Below are positions 1,821 to 16,691 of a stretch of 64,000 bases of DNA, in pieces. The stretch's first letter is position 1, and each line of letters opens with the position of its first letter. The notes beneath the pieces are model-generated. The model had not been told where the DNA came from. It ran no database searches and saw only the letters and a program-made list of their open reading frames with translations. This stretch comes from Planctomycetota bacterium (GTDB lineage Bacteria; Planctomycetota; Phycisphaerae; Phycisphaerales; SM1A02): positions 1 through 64,000 of the forward strand of contig QWPT01000003.1 of assembly GCA_003671075.1 (NCBI GenBank). The letters run 5' to 3'. The position numbers and the translations under genes are program-made.

Positions 1821-3311
1821 TCAGCTCCAGGCGTCGAGCAGGATGGACAGGTCTTGCGCGTTGACATGACCGTCGTGGTTCAGGTCCGCCGGCCCGCTGG
1901 TGGCTCCCCACGCGTTGAGCAGGATGGCGAGATCTTGCGCGCCGACGATGCCATCGCCGTTGAAGTCGGCGGGATTCGCCGCCTCGCAAGCATCAGCGAT
2001 GCCGTTGGCGTTGGCATCGACGCAAGTAGTGCCAGGACCCGCCCAATTCGCGCCCGCCGCCACAGCCTGCGCCTGCGTGAGCTGCAAGCAGAAGCCGTTG
2101 GCGAAGCACGCCGCGCCGATGGGCTCGGGGCAAAGACCTGCGGAACAGACGGAGCCGTTGCCTTGGAAAACGCCGCCCTGCGCTGAACATGCCGACGGAC
2201 TCATCGAGCCCGCGCATGAACCGTCGGGCAGGCAGCACGCGCCTTGCGGGAAGCAGACATAACCCGTGCACGATTGCCCGGTGGGACCAGCGATTCCGCC
2301 CGCGGCCTGACAAGACGACGGCGTGAGTGTCACGCAGCCACCGGTGGCGACGAAGCAGCACGGACAGATATTCGCAACGCAAGTGTTAGCGGTGCAAACC
2401 ACGCCGGCGCCGCTGAAGACGCCGCCCTGCGCAACGCACGCGCTGTTGGAGAGGCTCTGGCAAGTTCCGTTGGGCAGGCAGCACGCGCCGGGAATCTCGC
2501 ATTGCTGCGGAGTCCAGCTCACGCGCATGACCCAATCGCCTGACGGGCGGCAAATCGACGGGATCTGCGCGAAGGACTTCCATCCTGCGCTGCAACCGAA
2601 TGCACCGCAATCGAGCGCGTAGAGCCAATTGTTGGTGGGTGACGAAAGCCCGCCGACATCAGTGGTCGGAAAGGCGTTGGATGAACTCGGCGGCGCAACC
2701 TGACATGGATTCTGCGTTTGATTGTTGTGCTCGTCGATGCGGAATCCCACGCTGAAGGTGTGCGATCCGTTGTCAACAACAACCATTTGCTCGGGATCAC
2801 CTGGATCGATTCCGAACTGCACATTGGTTCCGTTAGTTCCCGGAGACATCACCAGATGCGGCAAATCAACGCCATTGGATGAGTAGGTGTACGCGAGCGT
2901 TCCCGTTGCGGGCGTGCCTTGCCAAACCATGACCGACCACTTGGTCGTCGTCGAAACCGAGGCGTTGCTGGTGGCGAAGATCGCCTCGATGAGATCGATG
3001 CGCAACGGAAAATCGGTCGGACTCAGCGTGTACGAACACGCGCTGCTCTCGCCTTGGGCAAACCCCGCCTGCACGACATACTGGCCGCCATCGAACGCGG
3101 CATTGGTGTAGGTCGAGATCACTTGCGGGCAACCGCCACCCGCGACGCCGCCATCGGACGACCCATCATGCGGCTTGAAGTTCGGCGCGGCGATCAGCGA
3201 CGGCGCGTTCTTCACGCCGATCGATTCCTCGACGAGACGGGATCCATCTGCCTGCGCGAGAGCGGCGCATGCAAGCGCGGTCGCGATGGACGAACGGTTC
3301 AGAATCTGCAT
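1821..3311 (-). CDS. Exported Cys-rich repeat protein with dockerin-like C-terminus
   Basis: 496 aa. The signal peptide is MQILNRSSIATALACAALAQADG. Residues about 50-270 form a beta-sandwich-like exported domain of unknown function. Residues about 275-430 hold three to four Cys-rich repeats of the type GACCLPNGTC...CVAQGGVFSG, separated by variable loops. The last 55 residues are two dockerin-like repeats (DFNGDGIVGAQDLAILLNAW, DLNHDGHVNAQDLSILLDAW) with good calcium-loop residues. The start at 3311 is supported by GGAG seven bases upstream. Probably surface-exposed or secreted; the partner and function are unknown. It is paired with the smaller dockerin-like gene downstream. Confidence 0.8.
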   Translation of the reverse strand: MQILNRSSIATALACAALAQADGSRLVEESIGVKNAPSLIAAPNFKPHDGSSDGGVAGGGCPQVISTYTNAAFDGGQYVVQAGFAQGESSACSYTLSPTDFPLRIDLIEAIFATSNASVSTTTKWSVMVWQGTPATGTLAYTYSSNGVDLPHLVMSPGTNGTNVQFGIDPGDPEQMVVVDNGSHTFSVGFRIDEHNNQTQNPCQVAPPSSSNAFPTTDVGGLSSPTNNWLYALDCGAFGCSAGWKSFAQIPSICRPSGDWVMRVSWTPQQCEIPGACCLPNGTCQSLSNSACVAQGGVFSGAGVVCTANTCVANICPCCFVATGGCVTLTPSSCQAAGGIAGPTGQSCTGYVCFPQGACCLPDGSCAGSMSPSACSAQGGVFQGNGSVCSAGLCPEPIGAACFANGFCLQLTQAQAVAAGANWAGPGTTCVDANANGIADACEAANPADFNGDGIVGAQDLAILLNAWGATSGPADLNHDGHVNAQDLSILLDAWS

Positions 3312-3474
3312 GAAACTGCTCCAGAGTGGGCGTGCACGGCGTCGAATGGCTCGGCGGCTGCGATCAATCGACGCAGGTCGAGAGTACCACTGCTTTCTAC
3401 ACGCTCAAGAACTTGGAGCCCGTTCGGAGCCATTTGCGGCGATTGGGACTCTTGGAATGCGCGCCAATGGCGAA

Positions 3475-4513: not shown

Positions 4514-6418
4514 GTGACCGACTCATCGCGCCCATCTTCCGCCCCGCTCTTGGCTTCCACGCTCGGTCATACGCCAGGCCGGGCGGGGCGGCGACCGACC
4601 GATATCCCCCGTTTTATCCGAATCTCCCGATCCATCGGGCGGACGCTGACCAAGATCGGCCTCAACCGTGAGCGGCGACTGCTGCTTTGGGCGGCCGCAA
4701 TCGGCATGACGCTGGCAGTGGTGGCGCTCGCGTTCATCCTGCCGATCAAGTGGGCCGAGCGTGCGGCGATCTCGTGGCTCCACGATCATCCCGGACGCGC
4801 CGCGCTGGCCATTGCCATCGTGCCCGTTCTGGGCGCGCTTGCCTGCGGAGTGATCCAGCTTGCCTTCCCGGTGAAGATCCGTGCCCACGGCGTTTCCAGC
4901 GTTCTCTACGCAATCCATCGCCGCCGTTCGCAGCTGCCCGCCACGCTTGCGCTGCGCACTTGGTTCGGCGCAACCGCGATCATCGCCACTGGTGGCTCGG
5001 CCGGTCCCGAGGGGCCGATCGTCACCATCGGCGCAACGCTGGGCTCGATCATCTCGCGCTTCCTTCGCGTTGATCCGCGAACGGCGACCACCATGCTCGG
5101 TTGCGGCGCGGCGGCGGGACTCGCGGCTGTGTTCAACGCACCGATCACCGGGATCTTCTTCGTGCTCGAGGTTCTTCTGCGCGACTTCTCGCTGCGGACC
5201 TTCACGCCGATCGTGATTTCTTCGGTGTTCGCCGCAGCAACGGTGCAAACCCTTCTGGGCACGCAGGAGCCTCTCTTCGGCGTCAGCGCGCAAGCGGTCT
5301 CCGCCGACGGCGCCACGGCGTTGAACATCGCCACCGCACCGGCCTTTGCCATTCTCGGCATCGCCTGCGGAATCGCGAGTGTGTTCTTCGTGCGCACCGT
5401 GCAAGCGTGCGAAACGGCGTTCAGCCGGTTGCCGATTCCGCGCTGGATGTCGCCAGCGTCGGGCGCGGCGATCCTGGCGGTGCTGGGCATTCTCAACATT
5501 GCGTTCGCCGCCCGCTGGATGGATTTCGGACAAGGGCTGATGCCTCCGTTCTACGGCAACGGATATCCGCTCGCCAATGCGGTGCTGGATCCGGCCTTCT
5601 ATCACCACGAAACCGCGCTGGCGGTGGGCGCGTTACTCATCGGACTTGCGGTGGTGAAGTGCGTGGCCACTGGACTCACGCTTGGATCAGGCGGCATCGG
5701 CGGACTCTTTGCGCCGGCGCTTTTGGTCGGAGCACTCGTCGGCGGCGCGTTCGGAAGCATGGGTGAACTCGTTCCGCTGCTGCAAGATGTCGGGCCAACG
5801 CGGCTGGCGCTCGCGGGAATGGCGGGCGTGGTTGCGGGCACCACGCATGCGCCGCTTGCGGGCGCGATGCTGGTCTACGAACTCTCGCGCGAACCGTCGA
5901 TCCTGCTGCCCGTGATCTTGGTCGCGGCGCTGAGCACGATCGTTGCGCGCCTCCTCGAACGCCACAGCGTGTACACCGCCGAGTTGGCGGCGCTGGGCGT
6001 GCAGATCGGATCGACAACCGACATGTTGTCGCTGCGACGGATGCGCGTGAGCGATGTGATGCTCAAGGACGCCGTCTTTGTCCAGGGTTCCGCATCGGCG
6101 CACACGCTTCTCGCGTTGGCCGAAACGAAAGACGACTTCATCGTGCTCAACGACGCGGGTGGGCTCGAAGGTGTCGTGGGCGCGCGCGACCTTCGCATGG
6201 CGCTCGTGCACCCAGAGGCGCTGCCGCTGCTGCAGGTGCGCGATATCGCCCGCATTTCCACGCGCATGATCGATCTCGACATGCCGCTCGATCAGGCGCT
6301 TGAACTTGTCGAGCGCGGACCGCTTCCCGTCAAAAACGCTACTGGCCTGATCTTGGGCGTCATTACGCGGTCGCGGATCATGCGCACTTGGCAGCGTCGA
6401 ATCGAGCGCGACTCGTGA
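4514..6418 (+). CDS. CLC-type chloride channel with C-terminal CBS pair
   Basis: 634 aa, GTG start. The N-terminal 50 residues are cytosolic, followed by a CLC core of about 16-18 helices. Motifs are GSAGPEGP (keeps the gating glutamate), FNAPITGIFFVLEV and GSGGIGGLFAPALLVGA. Residues about 515-630 form two CBS domains that could bind nucleotides. The residue matching the internal proton glutamate of E. coli ClC-ec1 (E203, in FIIEEM) is Val here (FVLEVL). By family knowledge, Val at this place marks passive channels rather than H+/Cl- antiporters. The stop overlaps the rnpA GTG start. Confidence 0.88.
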   Translation: MTDSSRPSSAPLLASTLGHTPGRAGRRPTDIPRFIRISRSIGRTLTKIGLNRERRLLLWAAAIGMTLAVVALAFILPIKWAERAAISWLHDHPGRAALAIAIVPVLGALACGVIQLAFPVKIRAHGVSSVLYAIHRRRSQLPATLALRTWFGATAIIATGGSAGPEGPIVTIGATLGSIISRFLRVDPRTATTMLGCGAAAGLAAVFNAPITGIFFVLEVLLRDFSLRTFTPIVISSVFAAATVQTLLGTQEPLFGVSAQAVSADGATALNIATAPAFAILGIACGIASVFFVRTVQACETAFSRLPIPRWMSPASGAAILAVLGILNIAFAARWMDFGQGLMPPFYGNGYPLANAVLDPAFYHHETALAVGALLIGLAVVKCVATGLTLGSGGIGGLFAPALLVGALVGGAFGSMGELVPLLQDVGPTRLALAGMAGVVAGTTHAPLAGAMLVYELSREPSILLPVILVAALSTIVARLLERHSVYTAELAALGVQIGSTTDMLSLRRMRVSDVMLKDAVFVQGSASAHTLLALAETKDDFIVLNDAGGLEGVVGARDLRMALVHPEALPLLQVRDIARISTRMIDLDMPLDQALELVERGPLPVKNATGLILGVITRSRIMRTWQRRIERDS

Positions 6419-6837
6419 CCACGCCGCGCCTGACTTTTCGGCGTGAGCAGCGACTGCGCGGTCGTGGCGTCTTCAAGGAAGTCATGGACGGTCGGGCCCG
6501 CGCCGACGGTCCTGTCATCGCTGTGCATGCCCGGCCCAACGGCGGCGCGGCGCATCGCATCGGCATTTCCATCGGTCGCCGCGTTGGCGCCGCCGCGGTG
6601 CGCAATCGCATCAAGCGACTGCTTCGCGAAGCCTATCGCCTTTCCCAGCACGAATTGCCCCGCGACGAGCCGGCCCCCTACGACTTCATCATCGTCGTGC
6701 GCGCGCACGAGCCGCTCCCGCTCGAACACTACCGAGCCGCCTTCACCGACGCGGTGCGCCACCTTCACTCCACATGGCAGAAGCGAATCAACCGACGCAC
6801 AACCGCCGCCGACCGAGCCTCGCCGCGCGAGGACTGA
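6415..6837 (+). CDS. rnpA: Ribonuclease P protein component
   Basis: 140 aa from a GTG that overlaps the CLC stop codon (GTGA), implying translational coupling. It shows the RnpA signature RRVGAAAVRNRIKRLLREAYR (RNR motif) and the N-terminal FRREQRLRGRGVFKEV. The protein binds the RNase P RNA and assists 5' maturation of tRNAs. The ORF runs upstream to 6388, but the GTG at 6415 gives the usual short N-terminus. rpmH, the usual upstream partner, is missing; the gene follows a channel gene instead. It overlaps yidD by 64 nt. Confidence 0.92.
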   Translation: MTTPRLTFRREQRLRGRGVFKEVMDGRARADGPVIAVHARPNGGAAHRIGISIGRRVGAAAVRNRIKRLLREAYRLSQHELPRDEPAPYDFIIVVRAHEPLPLEHYRAAFTDAVRHLHSTWQKRINRRTTAADRASPRED

Positions 6838-7031
6838 TCCGCGCTGTGCGTGGATATCAAGTCGTGCTTGGTCCGCTTCTGGGCGGCCATTGCCGTTTCA
6901 CGCCGAGTTGCTCGTTCTATTCAATCGAAGCGTTGAACACGCATGGCGCTTGGCGCGGATCAAGGCTCACGCTGCGTCGATTGCTGCGCTGCCAACCATG
7001 GGGCGGCTGTGGTCACGACCCAGTGCCGTAA
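6774..7031 (+). CDS. yidD: Membrane protein insertion efficiency factor YidD
   Basis: 85 aa with the YidD signature CRFTPSCSFYSIEALNTHG...LLRCQPWGGCGHDPVP, including the three conserved Cys positions. YidD is a small peripheral inner-membrane protein that helps YidC insert proteins. It overlaps the end of rnpA in another frame, as in most bacteria, but yidC does not follow. The N-terminal 16 residues before the hydrophobic segment vary in this family. Confidence 0.92.
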   Translation: MAEANQPTHNRRRPSLAARGLIRAVRGYQVVLGPLLGGHCRFTPSCSFYSIEALNTHGAWRGSRLTLRRLLRCQPWGGCGHDPVP

Positions 7032-7300: not shown

Positions 7301-7587
7301 ATGCCTGAACCCAACTCTCCAATCATTGTCAGCGTGCTGCTCGCCGCGCTGATGGTGTTGGGCCTTGGGATCGTCGTTCTTCTGTTGTGGCGACGACGCC
7401 ACGAGATGATGCGATGCGATGAGATGATGCGACGCGATGATGCGGTTCGAGCGCATCCATCGCGAGCGCTCCGAAGCCATCGAGCGCGGTAGCCATCAGG
7501 CTCGGCTGATTCATCCCGACATCGATCTCGCAAAATGCATCGGCTGCGGAACATGCGTCCGCGCGTGCCCCGAGGACGGCGTGGTGA
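7301..7587 (+). pseudogene. Frameshifted, 3'-truncated remnant of a membrane-anchored ferredoxin-domain protein
   Basis: The first frame encodes MPEPNSPIIVSVLLAALMVLGLGIVVLLLWRRRHEMMR, a single membrane helix followed by a basic stretch. The next frame (from about 7437) continues with MRFERIHRERSEAIERG...LIHPDIDLAKCIGCGTCVRACPEDGV, a [4Fe-4S] CxxCxxCxxxCP cluster motif. The two halves meet in a GATGATGCG repeat whose three copies add 31 bp; deleting 31 bp fuses them into one frame. The reading then runs into the converging ccsA gene, so the rest of the protein is lost. The helix-plus-ferredoxin start resembles N-termini of some flavin/NAD-binding oxidoreductases (inference). Alternatively these are two tiny independent genes. 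Confidence 0.6.
7405..7444. repeat. Frameshifting GATGATGCG repeat
   Basis: GATGATGCG occurs at 7405, 7423 and 7436, with 18- and 13-bp periods. The added 31 bp shifts the reading frame of the ferredoxin-like remnant by one. Confidence 0.85.
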
Positions 7588-9294
7588 TCAGCGCGCGGCA
7601 AGACTTCGCCAACGCGCGAGTGGCACGAAGGCAACGCTCATCAGCGCGAGTTGCACGATGCAGAAAGTAACGAGCGCGAAGACGGCGGAGTCCATGAAGC
7701 CGTAGGAATGCAGGCCGACTCCGAGCATGTTGGTGCCGAACCACGACCACGCCGTTACGACATTTCCTGCGATCGCCAACGCAGCCACGCCGCGCTCGCG
7801 AATCATGCCGCCCCAACGCGCGTGCAGAATCAGGAGATTCCACAGCACGATGAGCGCTGCGCCGTTCTCCTTTGGATCCCAGCCCCAGAAGCGACCCCAA
7901 GACTGATCGGCCCAAATGCCGCCGAGCACGGTGCCTACGAAACTGGCGAACGCGGCGAAACAAATCACGCCGTAGATCATCTTCGGCAAAGCCTTCATGG
8001 CATCGCCGCGCAAGAGACGGGTCAAGACCCCGCCGAGCACATAGAAGATGGCGATGAAGCCGGCGAGAAAGCTCGCCGAGTAACCGACGGTGACAACAAC
8101 GACATGAGTCGCGAGCCAGAAGTTCGAATCGAGAACCGCCTGCATCATCTCCATGGTGTCGCCGGAGGCGGAGAGATTGTGGGCAACAACGAGGGTGGCG
8201 AAACCGATCAGCGATGCGGCCATTGCCAACACGCCGATGCGCGCGAACCACTCACCGGCCAGCGCGAGCGGAATGCAAACCCAACCGATGAAGACCGCCG
8301 AGCTGTAGAGGTTGGTGACGGGCGGACGGCCTTGCAGGTAGATGCGCGCAACCAACCCAACGGTGTGAAGCACGAAGGCGATCGCGATCACGATCAGCGC
8401 GCTGCGCAACAGGCTTGGTTTCCAGCGGTCTGGCGAAATCGGCGAGGCCAACATTGCCACGCAGCCCAGGAGAAACGCGAACAGATAGAGCAACGATGCC
8501 TGATAGAACGGCTCGCAGCGGCTCATGATCACTTCGAAGGAACTGGCGCTGCTTCCGGTGCCGAGATTTCCCGCTTCGGCCTTTGACTCAAGGAGCGCGC
8601 GATACCCCGCAACCCGTTGCGTGAAGTCCGCGCTGTCGCCGGTGGCGTAACTGGCCAACATGCCACGAAACGCCTGCGCGGAAACAGTATCGAGCGGCCT
8701 GCCGCGCGGGTCCGCGCCCATGAGCGGCGCCCACTCCTCGCCAGCCGCCAACGGCGCAACCGTGTAAGGCGTGCGCAGCGACTGCACCTCCGCATACTCC
8801 ACGAGCTTTCCGTACAGATCACTGATTTGTCGCTGGAAAGGATCCTGTTTCTTGCGTGGAATCTGCGAAGCGAGTTCGGCTTGACGCACGACCTCCTCGA
8901 GTTTGGGCGCAATCTCCATCCAACTAAAGCGGGTGCGCGTTGCATCGGACAGGGCCAGCAGAGAACGCACATCGGGATGATCGATACGAAAAACGCGCCG
9001 CTCGGCCGCGAGCTTTGGGTTGGTCCACAATTCGAGAATCCACTCGATCGCCGGATGCGTGCCTCCGTCGATCTCGCAAGTTTGTCGACCACTCAAACGC
9101 AGAAGCGTGTTGCGCGCGAAAGTATCGAGCGGCTTGGTGCGACCGCCGGCGGAAACGGGAATGCGGGCGATTCCCTCGAGCGGCATGGCGCGGGAAAGAT
9201 CACCCTCGTCAAAACCGCGCAAAAGCACGATCGATATGAAGGCGACGACGCCGAGCGCCACCAACGCGGGAAACCAGTGGGCAAGCTTCTTCAA
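7588..9294 (-). CDS. ccsA: System II cytochrome c maturation protein CcsA/ResC
   Basis: 568-aa polytopic membrane protein that moves haem across the membrane and, with ResB, attaches it to apocytochromes c. The C-terminal half (about 290-560) has eight or so helices and the tryptophan-rich WWD-type motif SWGRFWGWDPKENGA, plus a conserved C-terminal segment SWFGTNMLGVGLHSYGF with a His. The first about 260 residues are an extra non-cytoplasmic region after one helix. The start is taken as TTG at 9294: it overlaps the resB stop (TTGA) and has GGAGG eight bases upstream; the ATG-type ORF start at 9390 would overlap resB by 100 nt. Third gene of the lipoprotein-resB-ccsA operon. Confidence 0.88.
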   Translation of the reverse strand: MKKLAHWFPALVALGVVAFISIVLLRGFDEGDLSRAMPLEGIARIPVSAGGRTKPLDTFARNTLLRLSGRQTCEIDGGTHPAIEWILELWTNPKLAAERRVFRIDHPDVRSLLALSDATRTRFSWMEIAPKLEEVVRQAELASQIPRKKQDPFQRQISDLYGKLVEYAEVQSLRTPYTVAPLAAGEEWAPLMGADPRGRPLDTVSAQAFRGMLASYATGDSADFTQRVAGYRALLESKAEAGNLGTGSSASSFEVIMSRCEPFYQASLLYLFAFLLGCVAMLASPISPDRWKPSLLRSALIVIAIAFVLHTVGLVARIYLQGRPPVTNLYSSAVFIGWVCIPLALAGEWFARIGVLAMAASLIGFATLVVAHNLSASGDTMEMMQAVLDSNFWLATHVVVVTVGYSASFLAGFIAIFYVLGGVLTRLLRGDAMKALPKMIYGVICFAAFASFVGTVLGGIWADQSWGRFWGWDPKENGAALIVLWNLLILHARWGGMIRERGVAALAIAGNVVTAWSWFGTNMLGVGLHSYGFMDSAVFALVTFCIVQLALMSVAFVPLARWRSLAAR

Positions 9295-10475
9295 GCGATC
9301 TTCCTCCGAACCGAGCTGGAGAGGCGTGTGCCGAAGTGCAGGAGAAGCCCAAGCGAGACCAACGCGCAAGACAAGTACGGCAGCATCCATCCGGGATTGC
9401 GCACAACCTGCAAGACCGTTCCGCTGTCGTCAGGCGCGAACGACGCTTGGTAGAAGGTTTCTCCCGCGTAACGCAGCGGATTATTCATCGAGATCAGAAC
9501 TTCGCGATCCACGCGCTCGGTGGGATCAGACAAGCGCACCAGGCTGGAGAAGTTGCGCGCCATCTCGGTTCCGACAAAGCGATCGTGCTTGAAATCAATA
9601 AGCGAAACCGTGTAGGAGCGATAGTTGCGTTCGAAACGCAAGGCGATGTCGTAGCGCTTGGCGCCAACAACGACCGTCTGCGGCGCATTCAGCCGAGGCG
9701 AAACCATATAGGTTCCGAGCGAAGTTCCATCGTGCAATAACTCGAGGTAGGCGGCGGGAGTATCGATATCAGCGCCATCGACGCCAGTCGCAACATCAAC
9801 GGCGACTGCGGCGACTTGCGTGCCCGTCCCCACCGTCGCCCTCGCAAGTTGTTGCTTCGAAGCCTGCATCGGCCCGAGTACGCGCGCGTTGGGCATCCAC
9901 TCGATGACTCGCACCGCGAAAGGCATCACCCCGCTGGTGATCGGCGCCTGCGCACTTTCAGCGAGCAGGCTCGCGGGCACCACGACCACAAGGTCATCGG
10001 CCGGATCGGACCGATCGATGATGGCAAGCTCGCTGGTGCGCGTGTCCTCGATGTAGTTCGCCGACTGACCTTCGGCGATCGTCATGTTCCCTTCCTTGGC
10101 GAACGCACCGGTGACGAACTCGCCGACAAGCAGGAGCAGAACTCCGGCGTGCGTCGCGATCATTCCCGCGCGCTTCCACGAAAGCGTGAATCGCACGGCG
10201 TGGGCGGCGAGCAAGTTGACGAAGAGCAGGACGCCAAGAGTCATCCCGCCAGGAAAGGGGAAAACCCCTGGGATTCCTAGCACTTTCGCCGGCACGAACA
10301 GCTGGAAGGGAATCAGGACAAACAGCGAACGGAAGTAGAGGTCGACGACCATCCAGACGCCCTGCTCGGTCTGCGCGAGCGTGCCCGCGAGGATGAGCAC
10401 AATCGACAAGGCGAAGAGGACGACGGTCAGCCGCAGCGACGAGAGGCTGCGTAGAAGCGGTTTGAATGCGTTCAT
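9291..10475 (-). CDS. resB: Cytochrome c biogenesis protein ResB
   Basis: 394 aa. It starts MNAFKPLLRSLSSLRLTVVLFALSIVLILAGTLAQ, the typical first helix of ResB/Ccs1, then has further helices near residues 70-130, a large exported domain (about 130-360) and a last helix (MLPYLSCALVSLGLLLHFG). ResB works with CcsA in covalent haem ligation. The ATG at 10475 is preceded by AGGAG at good spacing and overlaps the lipoprotein stop (ATGA), so this start is well supported; the track's longer ORF is not needed. Confidence 0.88.
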   Translation of the reverse strand: MNAFKPLLRSLSSLRLTVVLFALSIVLILAGTLAQTEQGVWMVVDLYFRSLFVLIPFQLFVPAKVLGIPGVFPFPGGMTLGVLLFVNLLAAHAVRFTLSWKRAGMIATHAGVLLLLVGEFVTGAFAKEGNMTIAEGQSANYIEDTRTSELAIIDRSDPADDLVVVVPASLLAESAQAPITSGVMPFAVRVIEWMPNARVLGPMQASKQQLARATVGTGTQVAAVAVDVATGVDGADIDTPAAYLELLHDGTSLGTYMVSPRLNAPQTVVVGAKRYDIALRFERNYRSYTVSLIDFKHDRFVGTEMARNFSSLVRLSDPTERVDREVLISMNNPLRYAGETFYQASFAPDDSGTVLQVVRNPGWMLPYLSCALVSLGLLLHFGTRLSSSVRRKIA

Positions 10476-11599
10476 AGTGCGACTCCTAGACCAACCGCGC
10501 GTACGAAGGCATCGAATTGCGCGCGCTCTGCTTCGACCCCAGCAACGGTGCCGCGCAACTTGAAGTACCAAGTCGCGCCGTCAACCGTGATGATTGCGAC
10601 GATCATGCGGTCGGTGCCCGCGTCGTTGACGAGATCAACCGCCGTCGCACCCGGTCCAACTTGACTGCGCTTGACCTGCGCGAGATCGGCCATCGCCTCG
10701 AGCCCGAGCTGACCGCGCCAACGATTGATGTTGGCAAGATCTCCGCCGCCGTCATTGGCGAGCGAAGTCGCGGTCACCCTCGCTCCACCTCCCGCATTTG
10801 TCACGGCAAAGGCGGCGGTCACGATTCCGCCAGCCTGCGCCTCGGCCCTCCAAGTGGCGGGCACGGCGCAGAGAGCAAGGCGTTCTTCAATCGCACCCAT
10901 CGCCTGCACCGGTGCACCCGCCGATGCGTTCGCGGAAGTCGGCGGCGAATTCGGATCGGTCGTTGCTTGGTCCGCGCGAGTGCTGGCGGGAGCGCTGGCG
11001 GGAGCACTCGCGGGCGCACCCGCACCCTCTCGGCGAAACGAACGGGCGAACGCGTCAAAGGTGGGACGCAGCGCCGCGGCGCGGGTTGCATCGGTCGTCG
11101 ACTTCACGAACCAAGTCTGCCCATCGCCAGGCGTAACGACGGCGGCGAGCATGACTCGTCCATCGCTTGCGGTCATCGCCAGCGTGGCAACATCGGTGCC
11201 ATGATCGCTCGTCGACGAAAGCAGCGGCGCGAGCTCACGCTCTTCGATGGCGGCAAGCCCGATCTGCCCGCGCCAACGATTCACATTCGCAAGCATTCCA
11301 CCAACAGCGCCGGGGAACGCCGCCACCGTCACCTCAGCGCCCGAAGCGTCGTAAGTCGCCAGGCGCATCGGCTGGTCCGATTGCACCACCTTCCAATCGC
11401 CAGGAACATCCCAAACGACGCGCGCGCCATCGGCGGCCCTCGTTGGAAGTTCAGGGTTGATGTCTTGTGGTCGAGCGCGCCCCGCACCCGCGAGCGAATC
11501 GTCAACCGATTTCGCAACACGATACGAGTGAACATCCTCACGGCCACAGCCGACGGTCATCACTGCGAGAGTGGCGATCAAAGCGATTCGGCGCTGCAC
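10472..11599 (-). CDS. Predicted lipoprotein with duplicated domain
   Basis: 375 aa from a GTG at 11599 (GGAG five bases upstream), giving the lipoprotein signal VQRRIALIATLAVMTVGC with the lipobox ending at Cys18. After a short linker come two related domains of about 130 residues. Each has NRWRGQIGL or NRWRGQLGL, a following ERELAPLL or AQVKRSQVG stretch and a C-terminal F-D-A-F-(A/V)-R. An Ala-Pro-Ser repeat linker (APASAPASAPAS), encoded by 12-bp repeats, joins them. The function is unknown. The overlap with resB suggests a membrane-anchored accessory to cytochrome c assembly (inference). Confidence 0.7.
   Translation of the reverse strand: MQRRIALIATLAVMTVGCGREDVHSYRVAKSVDDSLAGAGRARPQDINPELPTRAADGARVVWDVPGDWKVVQSDQPMRLATYDASGAEVTVAAFPGAVGGMLANVNRWRGQIGLAAIEERELAPLLSSTSDHGTDVATLAMTASDGRVMLAAVVTPGDGQTWFVKSTTDATRAAALRPTFDAFARSFRREGAGAPASAPASAPASTRADQATTDPNSPPTSANASAGAPVQAMGAIEERLALCAVPATWRAEAQAGGIVTAAFAVTNAGGGARVTATSLANDGGGDLANINRWRGQLGLEAMADLAQVKRSQVGPGATAVDLVNDAGTDRMIVAIITVDGATWYFKLRGTVAGVEAERAQFDAFVRAVGLGVAL
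10982..11017. repeat. 12-bp in-frame tandem repeat (Ala-Pro-Ala-Ser linker)
   Basis: GCTGGCGGGAGC occurs twice, followed by a diverged third unit. It encodes the APAS repeats joining the two lipoprotein domains without shifting the frame. Confidence 0.85.
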
Positions 11600-11670
11600 A
11601 GAAACTCCATTGATGTCGAGCGCCAGCCATCCGCGCGCCCCGGCGACACGAAAAAAGGCCGACATCCTCG

Positions 11671-11676
11671 ATGATA
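11671..11676 (-). promoter_or_regulatory. Candidate -10 box of the lipoprotein-resB-ccsA operon
   Basis: TATCAT on the minus strand would start transcription about 65 nt before the GTG that has a Shine-Dalgarno sequence. It sits in a short inverted repeat, GATAGCATCCTATC. No -35 element is obvious. Confidence 0.4.
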
Positions 11677-11737
11677 GGATGCTATCGACTGTGACCGCGT
11701 CCGCGCCTCAGAACTTGGCCTGATCCTGCCGGCGCGC

Positions 11738-12394
11738 TCAGGCCTCGCGCACCTTGTTCACCAGGTGCCCGATCCGGGCGATCTTCACCTCAACGCAGTC
11801 GCCGTCCTTCAGGAAGAGCGGCGGCGTCCGCCCCGCACCAACGCCCGCTGGGGTGCCGGTGAGGACGATGGTTCCCGCCAACAGCGTCATGCCGCGCGAA
11901 AGTTCGGCAATGAGAAACTTGACCGGAAAGACCATCAATCGCGTGCTGGCGTGCTGCACACGCACACCGTTGAGGATCGTCTCGATCTCGAGATCCTGCG
12001 GATCAGCGATCGCACCCGCGGGCACGAGGTCGCTCATGGGACAGAATGTATCGAAGCTTTTGCCTCGGCAAAACTGCCCACCCGAACCAGTCTTCTGCCA
12101 CCAGCGCGCGCTCACATCGTTGGCTACGCGGTAACCGGCGAGCACCGACATCGCCTGTTCCACGGGAACATCGCGGCAATCGTCGGCAATCTCAAAGGCG
12201 AGCTCGCCTTCGTAATCAACCTGCGGTCCGCCTTCGCGGCAAATCGTGGGAATCACGATGGTGTCGCCGTTGCGACACGCGCTCGCGGGATTCTTCATGA
12301 ACACCATCGGGCGTTCGTCGGTCTTGCCGCCCATCTCGGCGGCGTGGTCGGCGTAGTTACGGCCAATGGCGATGATCGCGGGTGGAATGCGCAT
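11738..12394 (-). CDS. Fumarylacetoacetate hydrolase (FAH) family protein
   Basis: 218 aa, the size of the one-domain FAH fold. Motifs are GRNYADHAAEMG, the metal-binding DYEGELAFEI (two acidic ligands), ANDVSAR, GKSFDTFCPMSD and LTGTPAGVG. Members hydrolyse C-C bonds of acylpyruvates (acylpyruvase/oxaloacetate decarboxylase type) or hydrate 2-keto-pentenoates; the exact substrate cannot be assigned. It is a single gene with no aromatic degradation genes nearby, which favours a housekeeping acylpyruvase or oxaloacetate tautomerase role (inference). The start codon is exactly where the upstream TAGATT box predicts transcription to begin. Confidence 0.85.
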   Translation of the reverse strand: MRIPPAIIAIGRNYADHAAEMGGKTDERPMVFMKNPASACRNGDTIVIPTICREGGPQVDYEGELAFEIADDCRDVPVEQAMSVLAGYRVANDVSARWWQKTGSGGQFCRGKSFDTFCPMSDLVPAGAIADPQDLEIETILNGVRVQHASTRLMVFPVKFLIAELSRGMTLLAGTIVLTGTPAGVGAGRTPPLFLKDGDCVEVKIARIGHLVNKVREA

Positions 12395-12400
12395 ACGCGC

Positions 12401-12406
12401 AATCTA
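12401..12406 (-). promoter_or_regulatory. -10 box of the FAH-family gene (leaderless)
   Basis: TAGATT, then six bases, then ATG. The predicted transcription start coincides with the A of the start codon; no Shine-Dalgarno sequence is present. Confidence 0.55.
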
Positions 12407-12432
12407 CCGACCAACGGTGACGAGCGCTCGCG

Positions 12433-14631
12433 CTACTTCCGCTCCGCGTCGGAACGGTTTTCCTGCTTGACCGCTTCGGCCTTCGCCTTGGCAGCTTCGG
12501 CCTGCGCCTTTCGGAACGCGTCGATGCCGGCTGGCTCAGGAACAAGATTGGCGAACACCAATCCAGAACTCGCCAACCGACTGCTCTTGAACTCCAACTC
12601 AAGCGCGGGGCGCACCTGGTCATAGACCAATGCGCGCACTTCGTCAGGCGCCTTGCGGAAGATGATCAGGCGATCAAGCAGCGGCTGCGAAGTATCGAGC
12701 AGAATCTTGGTGAACACCGCGGGAATCGACTGGTCGAGTTCGCCGATCAGGTCCTTCATGCGGCCCTCGCCGAACTTGTTCACGAAGTCGTTGTACCGCG
12801 CCTCGCGGAAATACCGAGTGAGGCCACGCGCGTACTCGAGCGCCTCCTTCAGCACCTGCTCATTGTCCAGCAGCAAGCCTTCGCGGAAACCGCGCTCGAG
12901 CACTGAGTAGACATCGCTGCGCGCAACTTCGGGCTGCATTTCAAACTCGCCGTAGGTCACGCTTCGCACGAACTCGTCGATAGGGACGTGGTAGGTGGTG
13001 TTCTCGTTAAACGAGCCGCGGCCGTAGAGCCGATCGAGCTTGTCAAGAATCGCCTGCCCGCCCGCGACATCACCGGTGCGATACAGCTCGCGCACCGCCT
13101 GTTTCATGAAGTTCTCGTGGAAGTTCGTGAAGGTGTCGCCACCAGCGCCGCGCACGTCGTAGTGCTTCTTGTAGAGCACCTCGAAGTACTCGTCGATCAC
13201 CTTGATCCAACGCGCGTCGTTGAGGCGCGTGACATTGTCGCCGCTGAACGGGTCGTACTGCACCAACCCCGAACGGGCGAGAGCCTGCATGGCCTGGATC
13301 TCGACGCGATCGTTGTTGATGACCTTGTAGATGTCTTTGTCGTCGGTAATGCGATGCTCGCCGTATTCGGAGCCGCGGCGCGCCCAATAGAGCGCGTGGG
13401 CTGCGGGGTGGCGCCAGTCGAGCGGACCAGTGGCGGCTGTGTACTTGGACATCAGCGCCGGATCCATGTTGTAAGCGTCTACGAGCACGCGCTTGCGAAG
13501 GAACGCCATGAGGGCGCCACCGGCACGGGCGCGCGCGGGATCGCCGAAGGTCGAATCGAAGATACCAACGAGAGTCGCGGCCTCTTCACTCATGGCGCGC
13601 AGGCCAAGAAAGCGCGCGTAGGGCGAACTCTGCCGCGACGCCCATTCGCCAACGAGCAACAGAAAACGCTTGTCGGCGGCGAAGGCGTAGCGCGGCGGAA
13701 GCGGCGCCAACTTCGTCTCCAACTCGCTGACGAAATCCTTCGCCTCCGGGACTTTGGCGTAGAGGCCGTCGAGGGTGTCGGGTGCGTCGGCGATCGCCTT
13801 GATCCACGCCTTGCGCTGCTCGTAATCCTGCGGCGGAATACCGAGGAGATACTGCCATTCGCGGGCAAACTGCCGCTTGTAGGTGAGGTGCGCATCGTCG
13901 GCCACGCCGTCGATCTTGTGAGAGAACCAAAAGGCGAGCTCCTTGCACAGCAACAGACTGTTCGGGTTGTAGCGAACGCCCTTGTCGCGCACGAGCGAGA
14001 TACCTGCGTTCACCCACGCCCAACGCTCTTCGGGCGTGTTGGTCATGACCGAGATGTTGTAGGCCATGTTGTGTCCATGGAATGACCACACCTCGGGAAA
14101 TCGCGGCTGCAGCGCGGTGATGAGATTGGCGTCGGACATCACCTCGTAGAGAAGGCCCTTCTCTTTCTGCAAGGTGACCTTGATCCACAGGTAATCGACG
14201 AGAAGACCGCGCAACGCACCGAGCGCAGTGCCCAGCACCACCATTGGTGGCGCGCCGTCTTCGGCTTCGTCGGTGTAGCGCAGGCCAAATCCGCCTTGAC
14301 CACGCACAACGGCCTCGATCGACTCCTGACCCTTCGCGGTCTCGAAGCCAACGGCAACATCGTCGCCGACCTTGCCAGTCCAGGTACGAATGTCGCCGAG
14401 GTACTTGAACGAGAGATCCTGGCCCGAAAGCACTGATTTCTTCGTCTCAATCGAGCGGATGCGCGAGAGCGAAACTCGGCGCTGTGCTTCGGGACGGCTC
14501 TCGCCCGCGACGCCGAGCGCCAGATACTGCTCGCTCGCCATCTCCGTCAGGCGCGGCTGCAGCAAACCCGCCGCGGTGAACGCAAGAATTCCGATGAGGA
14601 CGGAGAGGATCAGGATGGCGCGATCGCGCAT
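12433..14631 (-). CDS. Large membrane-anchored protein of unknown function in the ABC operon
   Basis: 732 aa. It begins MRDRAILILSVLIGILAFTAAGLLQP, one N-terminal helix that anchors a large exported domain. The middle has helical-repeat character with long aromatic-rich segments such as WSFHGHNMAYNIS, PEERWAWVNAGISLVRDKG, NPNSLLLCKELAFWFSHKI and KRQFAREWQYLLG. I associate this layout with planctomycete proteins but know no function. It starts 2 nt after the permease stop and is the last gene of the operon. The track's start at 14757 lies inside the permease gene; 14631 fits the operon. The C-terminus is charged (KAKAEAVKQENRSDAERK). Confidence 0.65.
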   Translation of the reverse strand: MRDRAILILSVLIGILAFTAAGLLQPRLTEMASEQYLALGVAGESRPEAQRRVSLSRIRSIETKKSVLSGQDLSFKYLGDIRTWTGKVGDDVAVGFETAKGQESIEAVVRGQGGFGLRYTDEAEDGAPPMVVLGTALGALRGLLVDYLWIKVTLQKEKGLLYEVMSDANLITALQPRFPEVWSFHGHNMAYNISVMTNTPEERWAWVNAGISLVRDKGVRYNPNSLLLCKELAFWFSHKIDGVADDAHLTYKRQFAREWQYLLGIPPQDYEQRKAWIKAIADAPDTLDGLYAKVPEAKDFVSELETKLAPLPPRYAFAADKRFLLLVGEWASRQSSPYARFLGLRAMSEEAATLVGIFDSTFGDPARARAGGALMAFLRKRVLVDAYNMDPALMSKYTAATGPLDWRHPAAHALYWARRGSEYGEHRITDDKDIYKVINNDRVEIQAMQALARSGLVQYDPFSGDNVTRLNDARWIKVIDEYFEVLYKKHYDVRGAGGDTFTNFHENFMKQAVRELYRTGDVAGGQAILDKLDRLYGRGSFNENTTYHVPIDEFVRSVTYGEFEMQPEVARSDVYSVLERGFREGLLLDNEQVLKEALEYARGLTRYFREARYNDFVNKFGEGRMKDLIGELDQSIPAVFTKILLDTSQPLLDRLIIFRKAPDEVRALVYDQVRPALELEFKSSRLASSGLVFANLVPEPAGIDAFRKAQAEAAKAKAEAVKQENRSDAERK

Positions 14632-14633
14632 GG

Positions 14634-16691
14634 TCAGCCCCCCTGCCCGCTGTAAATGGCGAGTTCCTTGCGACGGAACGAAAGGTATCCGAGCACAAGC
14701 AGCACACCCGACCAACCAACGCCGATCATGACGAAGGTTCGCCCGACATCGTTCCACGAAACCAACCGGCCTTCAACGACGGGCCCATTGCCCTGCGCCT
14801 CGCCGAACGCGCGCACCGAAAACTCAGTTGCGCCAGCGATGGTCCGCACCAACGCCTCGAAACCCTTGAGGATTTCGGAGTCGGTTCGAATGCTGTACTC
14901 GGCAACACTGGTGGCAAGGAACGGTCCGATGGATCCCGCAGAGAAGACGGTGAACACCACGAGGCAAGCGACGGGGAAGCTCAGTGTCGCTGCGCAAACT
15001 ACGGAAAGCATGCCGAGAAACGACAGTTTCAGCAGGTTCATCAACTGCGCGCGAAAGAGATTGTCACCGAATCCGCCAACGCGATAGAGCAGCTCGATGC
15101 CATTGGGATCGAAGAAGATCGTTCCCATACCAGGCAGAAACTCAAGTTCGTTGGGACGCGCGTTCTTGTTGAGTCTCTGATTCTGAATGTGCACATCGAG
15201 CGTGCCATCGTCGGCAATGGCGCTCGCGGGCACAGGCACAACATTGGACTGAGCGGCGATGAAGTTGTGATCGATCCACGCCTGCCGATCACCCTCGCCA
15301 AAGACGAACACCACGGGATACACCTGGTTGGGATCGCTCTCGCCGGCGTAGAACTTGTAACGCAGCGAAAGGCTTCCTCCCGCGCGCTGCTGAGCGGAAA
15401 GTCCGGTGAAGCGATACACGCGCTCGTTGTTCGGGCCAATCGAACGCTGCGCCTTGAGGTACTCCTCGCTGATCGCACGCGCCAGACTCTTCTTGACCTC
15501 GATTTCAGTACGCACGCCTTCGCGCAGATCGGACTGAATGTTTGGATCGGCCTTCATCGTCTCTTCGACGGCGGCCTGCAACTCCGCAGGCGCAAGCCTG
15601 GTGTAGAGGGGATAGCTACCGATGCGCGCAACCAGAACCTCGTCCTGCACGGCGATGGCGTCGTAAAGATCCTGGGCCGGACGCGCGCGGATCTGCGCGA
15701 GAAACGCGTACATCGCCACCGTGCAAGTCAGAAGAATGGCGATGTTGATCGCGACCAGTCCAAGCCACTTGCCCGCGAGCCAAGAAAGGCGCGAAACCGG
15801 CTTGGTGAGCGTGGTCCACGCCTGACGATCGCGAATCTCAAACGCAACAGTCGCGCAACCGAGGAAGACGGTGAGAAACGCGCACACCATGTACATGGTG
15901 TCGAGCGCGCTCGAAAGATAGGTCTGCACTTGGTAGCGCAGCGGCAGCGTTGGGTCGATCATCTGCGGCAGCAGCGGAATGACGACGATTGCGATGGCGG
16001 CAAACGATACAGCAATGCGCAGGCGCATCGCCTCGCGCACCACGCTTCCCGCAACGGCGTAGATCGGTCGCGGCCGGTCGAGGGCTTCGAGCAGCAAGCG
16101 CACCACCAACACAAACATGAACAGAAAGAGCGGGATCGAGGCAAGACTCGCGCCGATGTTGGGGCGGCCCGCCAACAGCAAGCCACCGCCGATGGCGCCG
16201 CTCACGAACGAAACCAACACCAGCTGCAAGGCCAGGCCCGACCAACAGGCGAACCCAACAATGCTGAGCGCGACCGCACCTGCGCCGAGCGCGAGCCACG
16301 GCTCCTGCGCGAGCGCGATGGGCAACCAGTCCTTGCGTTGCGTGGCAAGAATGACGCTGGCCGCCTCGGCAACGCGCTCGATCTTGCCAGTGCGCTCAAA
16401 CATGCGCTCCAAGCTCTTGGCCAACGCGGCGTCGCCAACACTGGCGCCGTCGACGGTCAGCGTGCCCCGCTCAACGAGTTCGACCGCGATGGGTTCCTTG
16501 GCCGTCAAGTCCGCTTGCTTGAGAATCTCAGGGATGCGACCGGCGAGATAATCCAAGCGCGATGCCTCGCGATAGAAGATCGCGGCGACGGCGATGATGG
16601 CGACGCAGTACACCACCGCGACTGAAGTGCGCAGGCGGCGGCTGCGGCCGAGGGCGCCGAACTTCTCTTGAATCGCTTGATATGCGCTCAC
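14634..16691 (-). CDS. ABC-2 type transporter permease with large exported domain
   Basis: 685-aa membrane protein. One helix lies near residue 22-42, a cluster of helices at about 140-340, a long exported region (about 340-560) and C-terminal helices (about 570-670) ending in FRRKELAIYSGQGG. Segments such as FEIRDRQAWTTLTKPVSRLSWLAGKWLGLVAINIAILL match the ABC-2 permease pattern of membrane-remodelling or export systems. It overlaps the upstream ATPase gene by 4 nt (ATGA), so the two form one transporter. The cargo is not evident; the exported insert suggests interaction with periplasmic or cell-envelope material. Confidence 0.75.
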   Translation of the reverse strand: MSAYQAIQEKFGALGRSRRLRTSVAVVYCVAIIAVAAIFYREASRLDYLAGRIPEILKQADLTAKEPIAVELVERGTLTVDGASVGDAALAKSLERMFERTGKIERVAEAASVILATQRKDWLPIALAQEPWLALGAGAVALSIVGFACWSGLALQLVLVSFVSGAIGGGLLLAGRPNIGASLASIPLFLFMFVLVVRLLLEALDRPRPIYAVAGSVVREAMRLRIAVSFAAIAIVVIPLLPQMIDPTLPLRYQVQTYLSSALDTMYMVCAFLTVFLGCATVAFEIRDRQAWTTLTKPVSRLSWLAGKWLGLVAINIAILLTCTVAMYAFLAQIRARPAQDLYDAIAVQDEVLVARIGSYPLYTRLAPAELQAAVEETMKADPNIQSDLREGVRTEIEVKKSLARAISEEYLKAQRSIGPNNERVYRFTGLSAQQRAGGSLSLRYKFYAGESDPNQVYPVVFVFGEGDRQAWIDHNFIAAQSNVVPVPASAIADDGTLDVHIQNQRLNKNARPNELEFLPGMGTIFFDPNGIELLYRVGGFGDNLFRAQLMNLLKLSFLGMLSVVCAATLSFPVACLVVFTVFSAGSIGPFLATSVAEYSIRTDSEILKGFEALVRTIAGATEFSVRAFGEAQGNGPVVEGRLVSWNDVGRTFVMIGVGWSGVLLVLGYLSFRRKELAIYSGQGG

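Follow-up and report, generated by a model that had tools for sequence, protein, structure and literature searches.

A broken ferredoxin-like reading frame beside ccsA in a planctomycete, very probably the deletion scar of a multiheme cytochrome operon

Between yidD and the convergent ccsA gene of a Planctomycetota bacterium (assembly GCA_003671075.1, here G000), two short overlapping reading frames encode what looks like the beginning of an iron–sulfur protein. The window under study is the whole 64,000-nucleotide stretch of contig QWPT01000003.1. The first-pass annotation proposed a ferredoxin-like gene which was disabled by the expansion of a repeat and cut at the stop codon of ccsA. The locus raises the question of which gene once stood there, how much of it was lost, and in what way.

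Frame A (positions 7301–7492, plus strand) encodes 63 residues, MPEPNSPIIV...LLLWRRRHEMMR..., and carries a transmembrane (TM) helix. Frame B (7437–7670, plus strand) starts with its own ATG and encodes 77 residues, MMRFERIH...KCIGCGTCVRACPEDGV..., with one 4Fe-4S motif; in a profile search it was matched by Fer4 models (Fer4_7, E 1.8e-9). The sequence GATGATGCG occurs in three exact copies within 40 bp (7405–7444, plus strand, with starts at 7405, 7423 and 7436) and nowhere else in the window, and Tandem Repeats Finder called the array at 7394–7440. The spacings of 18 and 13 bp add up to 31 bp from the first to the last copy, which sets the two coding parts one base out of frame, just as initially described. 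A direct repeat of CCATCG (at 7457 and 7477, 20 bp apart; 7457–7482, plus strand) is also kept in the linker.

A genome scan revealed four Planctomycetota contigs (L002–L005) on which this N-terminus leads into a single long frame. Open frames of 796, 767 and 766 codons are present in G012 and G013, two members of the same genus, and in G045 from another family of the order, respectively. The product of the G012 gene (770 aa) combines the TM helix and a pair of 4Fe-4S motifs with a pyridine nucleotide-disulphide oxidoreductase domain (PF13738, E 1.7e-37; the closest NCBIfam model is YpdA, below its cut-off) and hydrophobic C-terminal segments, in which histidines are possibly b-heme ligands. 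The gene in the window is therefore broken and its 3' part lost, as had been proposed. The search for homologues yielded full-length relatives, none of which ends at the last codon of the remnant, and no short ferredoxin family ending there was found, the relatives being long open reading frames. Betaproteobacterial matches (L007–L040) were also considered as operon relatives; those inspected have no multiheme genes in the fetched flanks, and this group was taken to have no more than the Fe-S domain in common.

Alignment with the intact genes divides the remnant into two parts. The first (7301–7408, plus strand, frame A) comprises the start codon and the N-terminal TM helix, 36 codons that share 72% amino acid identity with G012 and 64% with G013; beyond it, frame A stays open to 7492 without homology to the relatives. 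The second (7437–7583, plus strand, frame B) comprises 49 codons with a charged linker and the first [4Fe-4S] motif, CIGCGTCVRACP, included in the Fer4 match, and is 80% identical to G012 over 49 codons and 83% to G013 over 36. In G012, the linker EEMRRYERSHRERTEAKERG is read in a single frame and the sequence at the site of the array is ...RRREEMRRYERSHRERTEA..., unbroken and without array. The linker of the window is 31 bp longer owing to the array, which offsets the TM and Fe-S parts by one base and is absent from both G012 and G013. Altogether the window retains about 85 codons. The ferredoxin-like character noted at first is borne out by the Fer4 match, but it belongs to the first ~11% of an oxidoreductase of about 770 residues and not to a small ferredoxin gene. 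Two-cluster ferredoxins have two cysteine motifs, and their clusters share ligands with the second one. Only the first motif is present in the window; the second, CVGHGRCAEVCP in the intact homologues, is missing.

The flanks of the remnant are collinear with those of relatives which hold the full gene between them, the arrangement by which a deletion remnant is recognised. On the left lies yidD (6774–7031, plus strand; PF01809, E 4.4e-25), common by synteny to G012, G013 and G008, and on the right a ccsA-type cytochrome c assembly gene (7588–9390, minus strand; 600 aa; PF01578, E 1.8e-18), intact and 79% identical to its G012 counterpart. With blastn, window positions 4654–7027, 7431–7583 and 7594–11426 aligned to positions 407–2819, 3264–3421 and 11158–14960 of G012; between these three collinear blocks, about 7.74 kb of G012 sequence is missing between 7583 and 7594 of the window. 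The comparison with G013 gave identical breakpoints and about 7.6 kb missing.

From blastn against the loci L097 and L098 (the latter being G013:C8:100000-115500) and from comparison of the flanks, the deletion junction was placed at 7583–7594, these two positions being the last base with homology to the operon and the first that aligns with ccsA of the relatives. The ccsA stop codon, TGA, occupies 7588–7590 on the minus strand, five bases further, so that the gene was indeed cut at the ccsA stop within 5 bp. The homology ends there, as the reading frame had been said to do, but frame B stays open as far as 7670. Its tail (7584–7670, plus strand), corresponding to the last ~27 of 77 codons, is antisense to the 3' end of ccsA and has no counterpart in the relatives. 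The C-termini of CcsA (..RSLAAR in the window, ..RSLAAAS in G012 and ..RSLAATP in G013, each followed by the stop) are alike, which indicates that ccsA is complete. No convincing microhomology was seen at the junction, nor any of a length that would point to a deletion mechanism; a crossover at GGCGTG, present on both sides in G013, does not fit the window sequence between the junction and ccsA.

The ccsA gene lies beside resB (7588–10571 for the region) and encodes an N-terminal extension of about 300 residues. This extended form was found only in the clade of four genomes described below, while other members of the genus have a paralogue of about 33% identity or no match. G000 also carries this paralogue on contig C28, where a TGA first taken to lie inside the gene proved to be its own stop. 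Possibly the extended ccsA was acquired together with the cytochrome operon and persisted in G000 after the operon was lost. Across the window (1–64,000), ccsA and resB are intact, yet CxxCH motifs occur only singly and no multiheme cytochrome gene is present.

In G012 and G013, the oxidoreductase gene sits between yidD and the convergent ccsA as the first of four operon genes. The second encodes a cytochrome with 23 CxxCH motifs and an N-terminal hydrophobic segment, the third a porin-like protein of about 550 residues (L097, 7536–9182) with a leader-like N-terminus, no CxxCH and the C-terminus ..RF, and the fourth a lipoprotein cytochrome with 25 CxxCH motifs in G012, where the lipobox is VVAC, and 22 in G013. 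The two G012 cytochromes, with 23 and 25 motifs, are thus multiheme c-type cytochromes, predicted to be located in the periplasm and at the outer membrane. For the porin-like protein, Pfam and NCBIfam gave no match and PDB sequences none that was meaningful, and an AlphaFold model (from L003/L004) was strand-rich and too poor for structure search (mean pLDDT 36.8). Multiheme cytochrome frames flank its gene on both sides in all eight loci inspected (L133–L140), and the order cytochrome, porin-like protein, cytochrome recurs at other porin-like hits in the order. Among 301 genomes sampled in the order, 14 gave a hit for the porin-like protein, within the family of the window only in its own genus; one of the 14, a weak match with stops in G129, is spurious, and was dismissed as a decaying copy since no operon homology exists at that locus. 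By its gene content, the lost block would be an operon of the porin–cytochrome type. By analogy with porin–cytochrome conduits (PMC4245776), the block was probably a system for extracellular electron transfer.

Neither the body of the oxidoreductase nor the cytochromes nor the porin-like gene was found anywhere in G000 (97.6% complete, 113-contig draft), and the whole-assembly searches thus gave no sign of relocation; the same queries recovered these genes in G012 and G013. The loss of a 3' part was hence correctly recognised but understated, since the rest of the oxidoreductase and three further genes are gone, about 7.6–7.7 kb in all.

The other members of the clade display further states of the locus. 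In G013, also a draft genome, gene 1 lacks about 20 bp in the linker, which breaks its frame independently (L098, 3325–3345), and no in-frame ATG is present upstream of its Fe-S motif. The site of this gap coincides with the CCATCG pair of the window with its 20-bp spacing, and the loss is consistent with slippage at these repeats. In the same genome, cytochrome 1 contains a TGA (L098, 7139–7141) in place of a tryptophan codon of G012, and the porin-like gene contains another (L098, 8422–8424). In G008, yidD and ccsA are about 75 bp apart, with neither operon nor remnant. Within a single Planctomycetota-type genus, one syntenic locus thus shows intact, decaying, scar and absent states. In a tree of the ClC protein, G012, G008, G000 and G013 form one clade (support 98/96), in which G012 branches first and the other three are grouped at 90/87. 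Together with the shared yidD–ccsA position, this single-gene tree of draft genomes suggests, as the simplest reading, that the ancestor of the clade had the operon and that it was then degraded separately.

With G012 as reference, pN/pS was 0.29 for the TM part (36 codons) and 0.27 for the Fe-S part (49 codons), while the intact neighbours gave 0.26 (ccsA) and 0.35 (ClC) for the same pair of genomes. Given the shortness of the segments, these values say no more than that signs of prolonged decay are lacking; as they equal those of intact genes, both array and deletion look recent relative to the divergence of the species. That repeat expansion came first, as had been asserted, is only one possible order, since the array and the deletion alike are confined to this genome and no relaxation of constraint is seen in either part of the remnant.

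The low pN/pS of the remnant could also be expected if frame B, with its one 4Fe-4S motif, and/or frame A, as a TM peptide, were expressed as a small protein under selection, and the retention of every residue of CIGCGTCVRACP and the ATG of frame B agree with such a re-use. However, a recent deletion would give equal pN/pS, 27 of the 77 codons of frame B are antisense ccsA, such a short gene exists in no relative and the partner genes are all gone, which makes re-use most unlikely. It is very unlikely, too, that the organism still has the operon and that the assembly joined the flanks across it or collapsed a mixture of strains. In a draft of 113 contigs a misjoin at 7583–7594 or a misassembled array is conceivable, but the remaining ~7.6 kb lies on no other contig, the operon is independently missing in G008, and the junction is clean at the stop of a ccsA complete at 600 aa.

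The array might finally be regarded as an on/off (contingency) switch or a frameshift site of the oxidoreductase gene, with the deletion as a later, incidental event. Of the three members of the genus that possess the gene, two carry a frame break at local direct repeats within this same short linker, which is rich in repeats. Nevertheless, the array is present in the genome of the window only, the G013 lesion is a separate event at a different repeat, the more distant L002–L005 are in frame without arrays, and the stops in two other operon genes of G013 point to decay; a switch appears extremely improbable.

The feature is thus very probably the deletion scar of a four-gene operon once located between yidD and the convergent ccsA. 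Its first gene would have encoded a membrane-anchored oxidoreductase with a TM helix, two 4Fe-4S motifs, a thioredoxin-reductase/YpdA-like domain and a C-terminal TM part, and the operon, by analogy with porin–cytochrome conduits, would have passed electrons between the cell exterior and a donor in the cytoplasm. As shown by synteny, a deletion of about 7.7 kb removed everything from codon ~85 of this gene to a few bases from the ccsA stop codon, the 31-bp array in the linker additionally splitting what is left into two frames. As it has neither the second motif nor the flavin and C-terminal membrane parts, the remnant is expected to yield no working protein. The mechanism of loss is ordinary; the loss is recurrent within one genus. 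A further proposal, that the intact operon is a little-described porin–cytochrome module (about 48 CxxCH motifs and a TM/Fe-S/flavoprotein fusion) which this clade gained at the yidD–ccsA site and which selection then removed repeatedly, breakage beginning preferentially in the repeat-rich linker of gene 1, is tentative and rather unlikely.

For annotation, no ferredoxin should be called at the remnant and the pathway should not be credited to G000. The four close species, with a probable extracellular electron transfer operon in four different states, offer a natural series for studying the conditions under which it pays to retain an operon of this kind.

Compared with known systems, residues ~185–450 of the intact homologue match YpdA/thioredoxin-reductase-like flavoproteins (TIGR04018, TIGR01292; PDB 7a7b) with E values of 3.6e-38 and 2e-19, but score far under the family cut-offs and are fused to ferredoxin and TM parts; this domain is wholly missing from the window. 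The lost block resembles the Pcc/Mtr clusters (OmbB-OmaB-OmcB, MtrCAB, extABCD; PMC4245776, PMC8235581) in its porin-like protein and two large multiheme cytochromes, one of them lipobox-bearing, and in weak matches of the block to the MtrC-like, DmsE and OmcA/MtrC models of Pfam/NCBIfam. It differs from them in the 23 and 22–25 CxxCH motifs per cytochrome, in the TM-FeS-flavoprotein fusion as first gene and in a porin-like protein that matches nothing in Pfam or NCBIfam and nothing meaningful among PDB sequences. The closest published parallel to the recurrent loss is Geobacter, where porin–cytochrome genes are reported to be often gained and lost (PMC12977616), and in Desulfuromonas pseudogenes with frameshifts and missing termini have been described (PMC12977616, PMC8235581). 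In contrast to the turnover in those genera, the intact, decaying, scar and absent states are here found at one syntenic locus in one genus.
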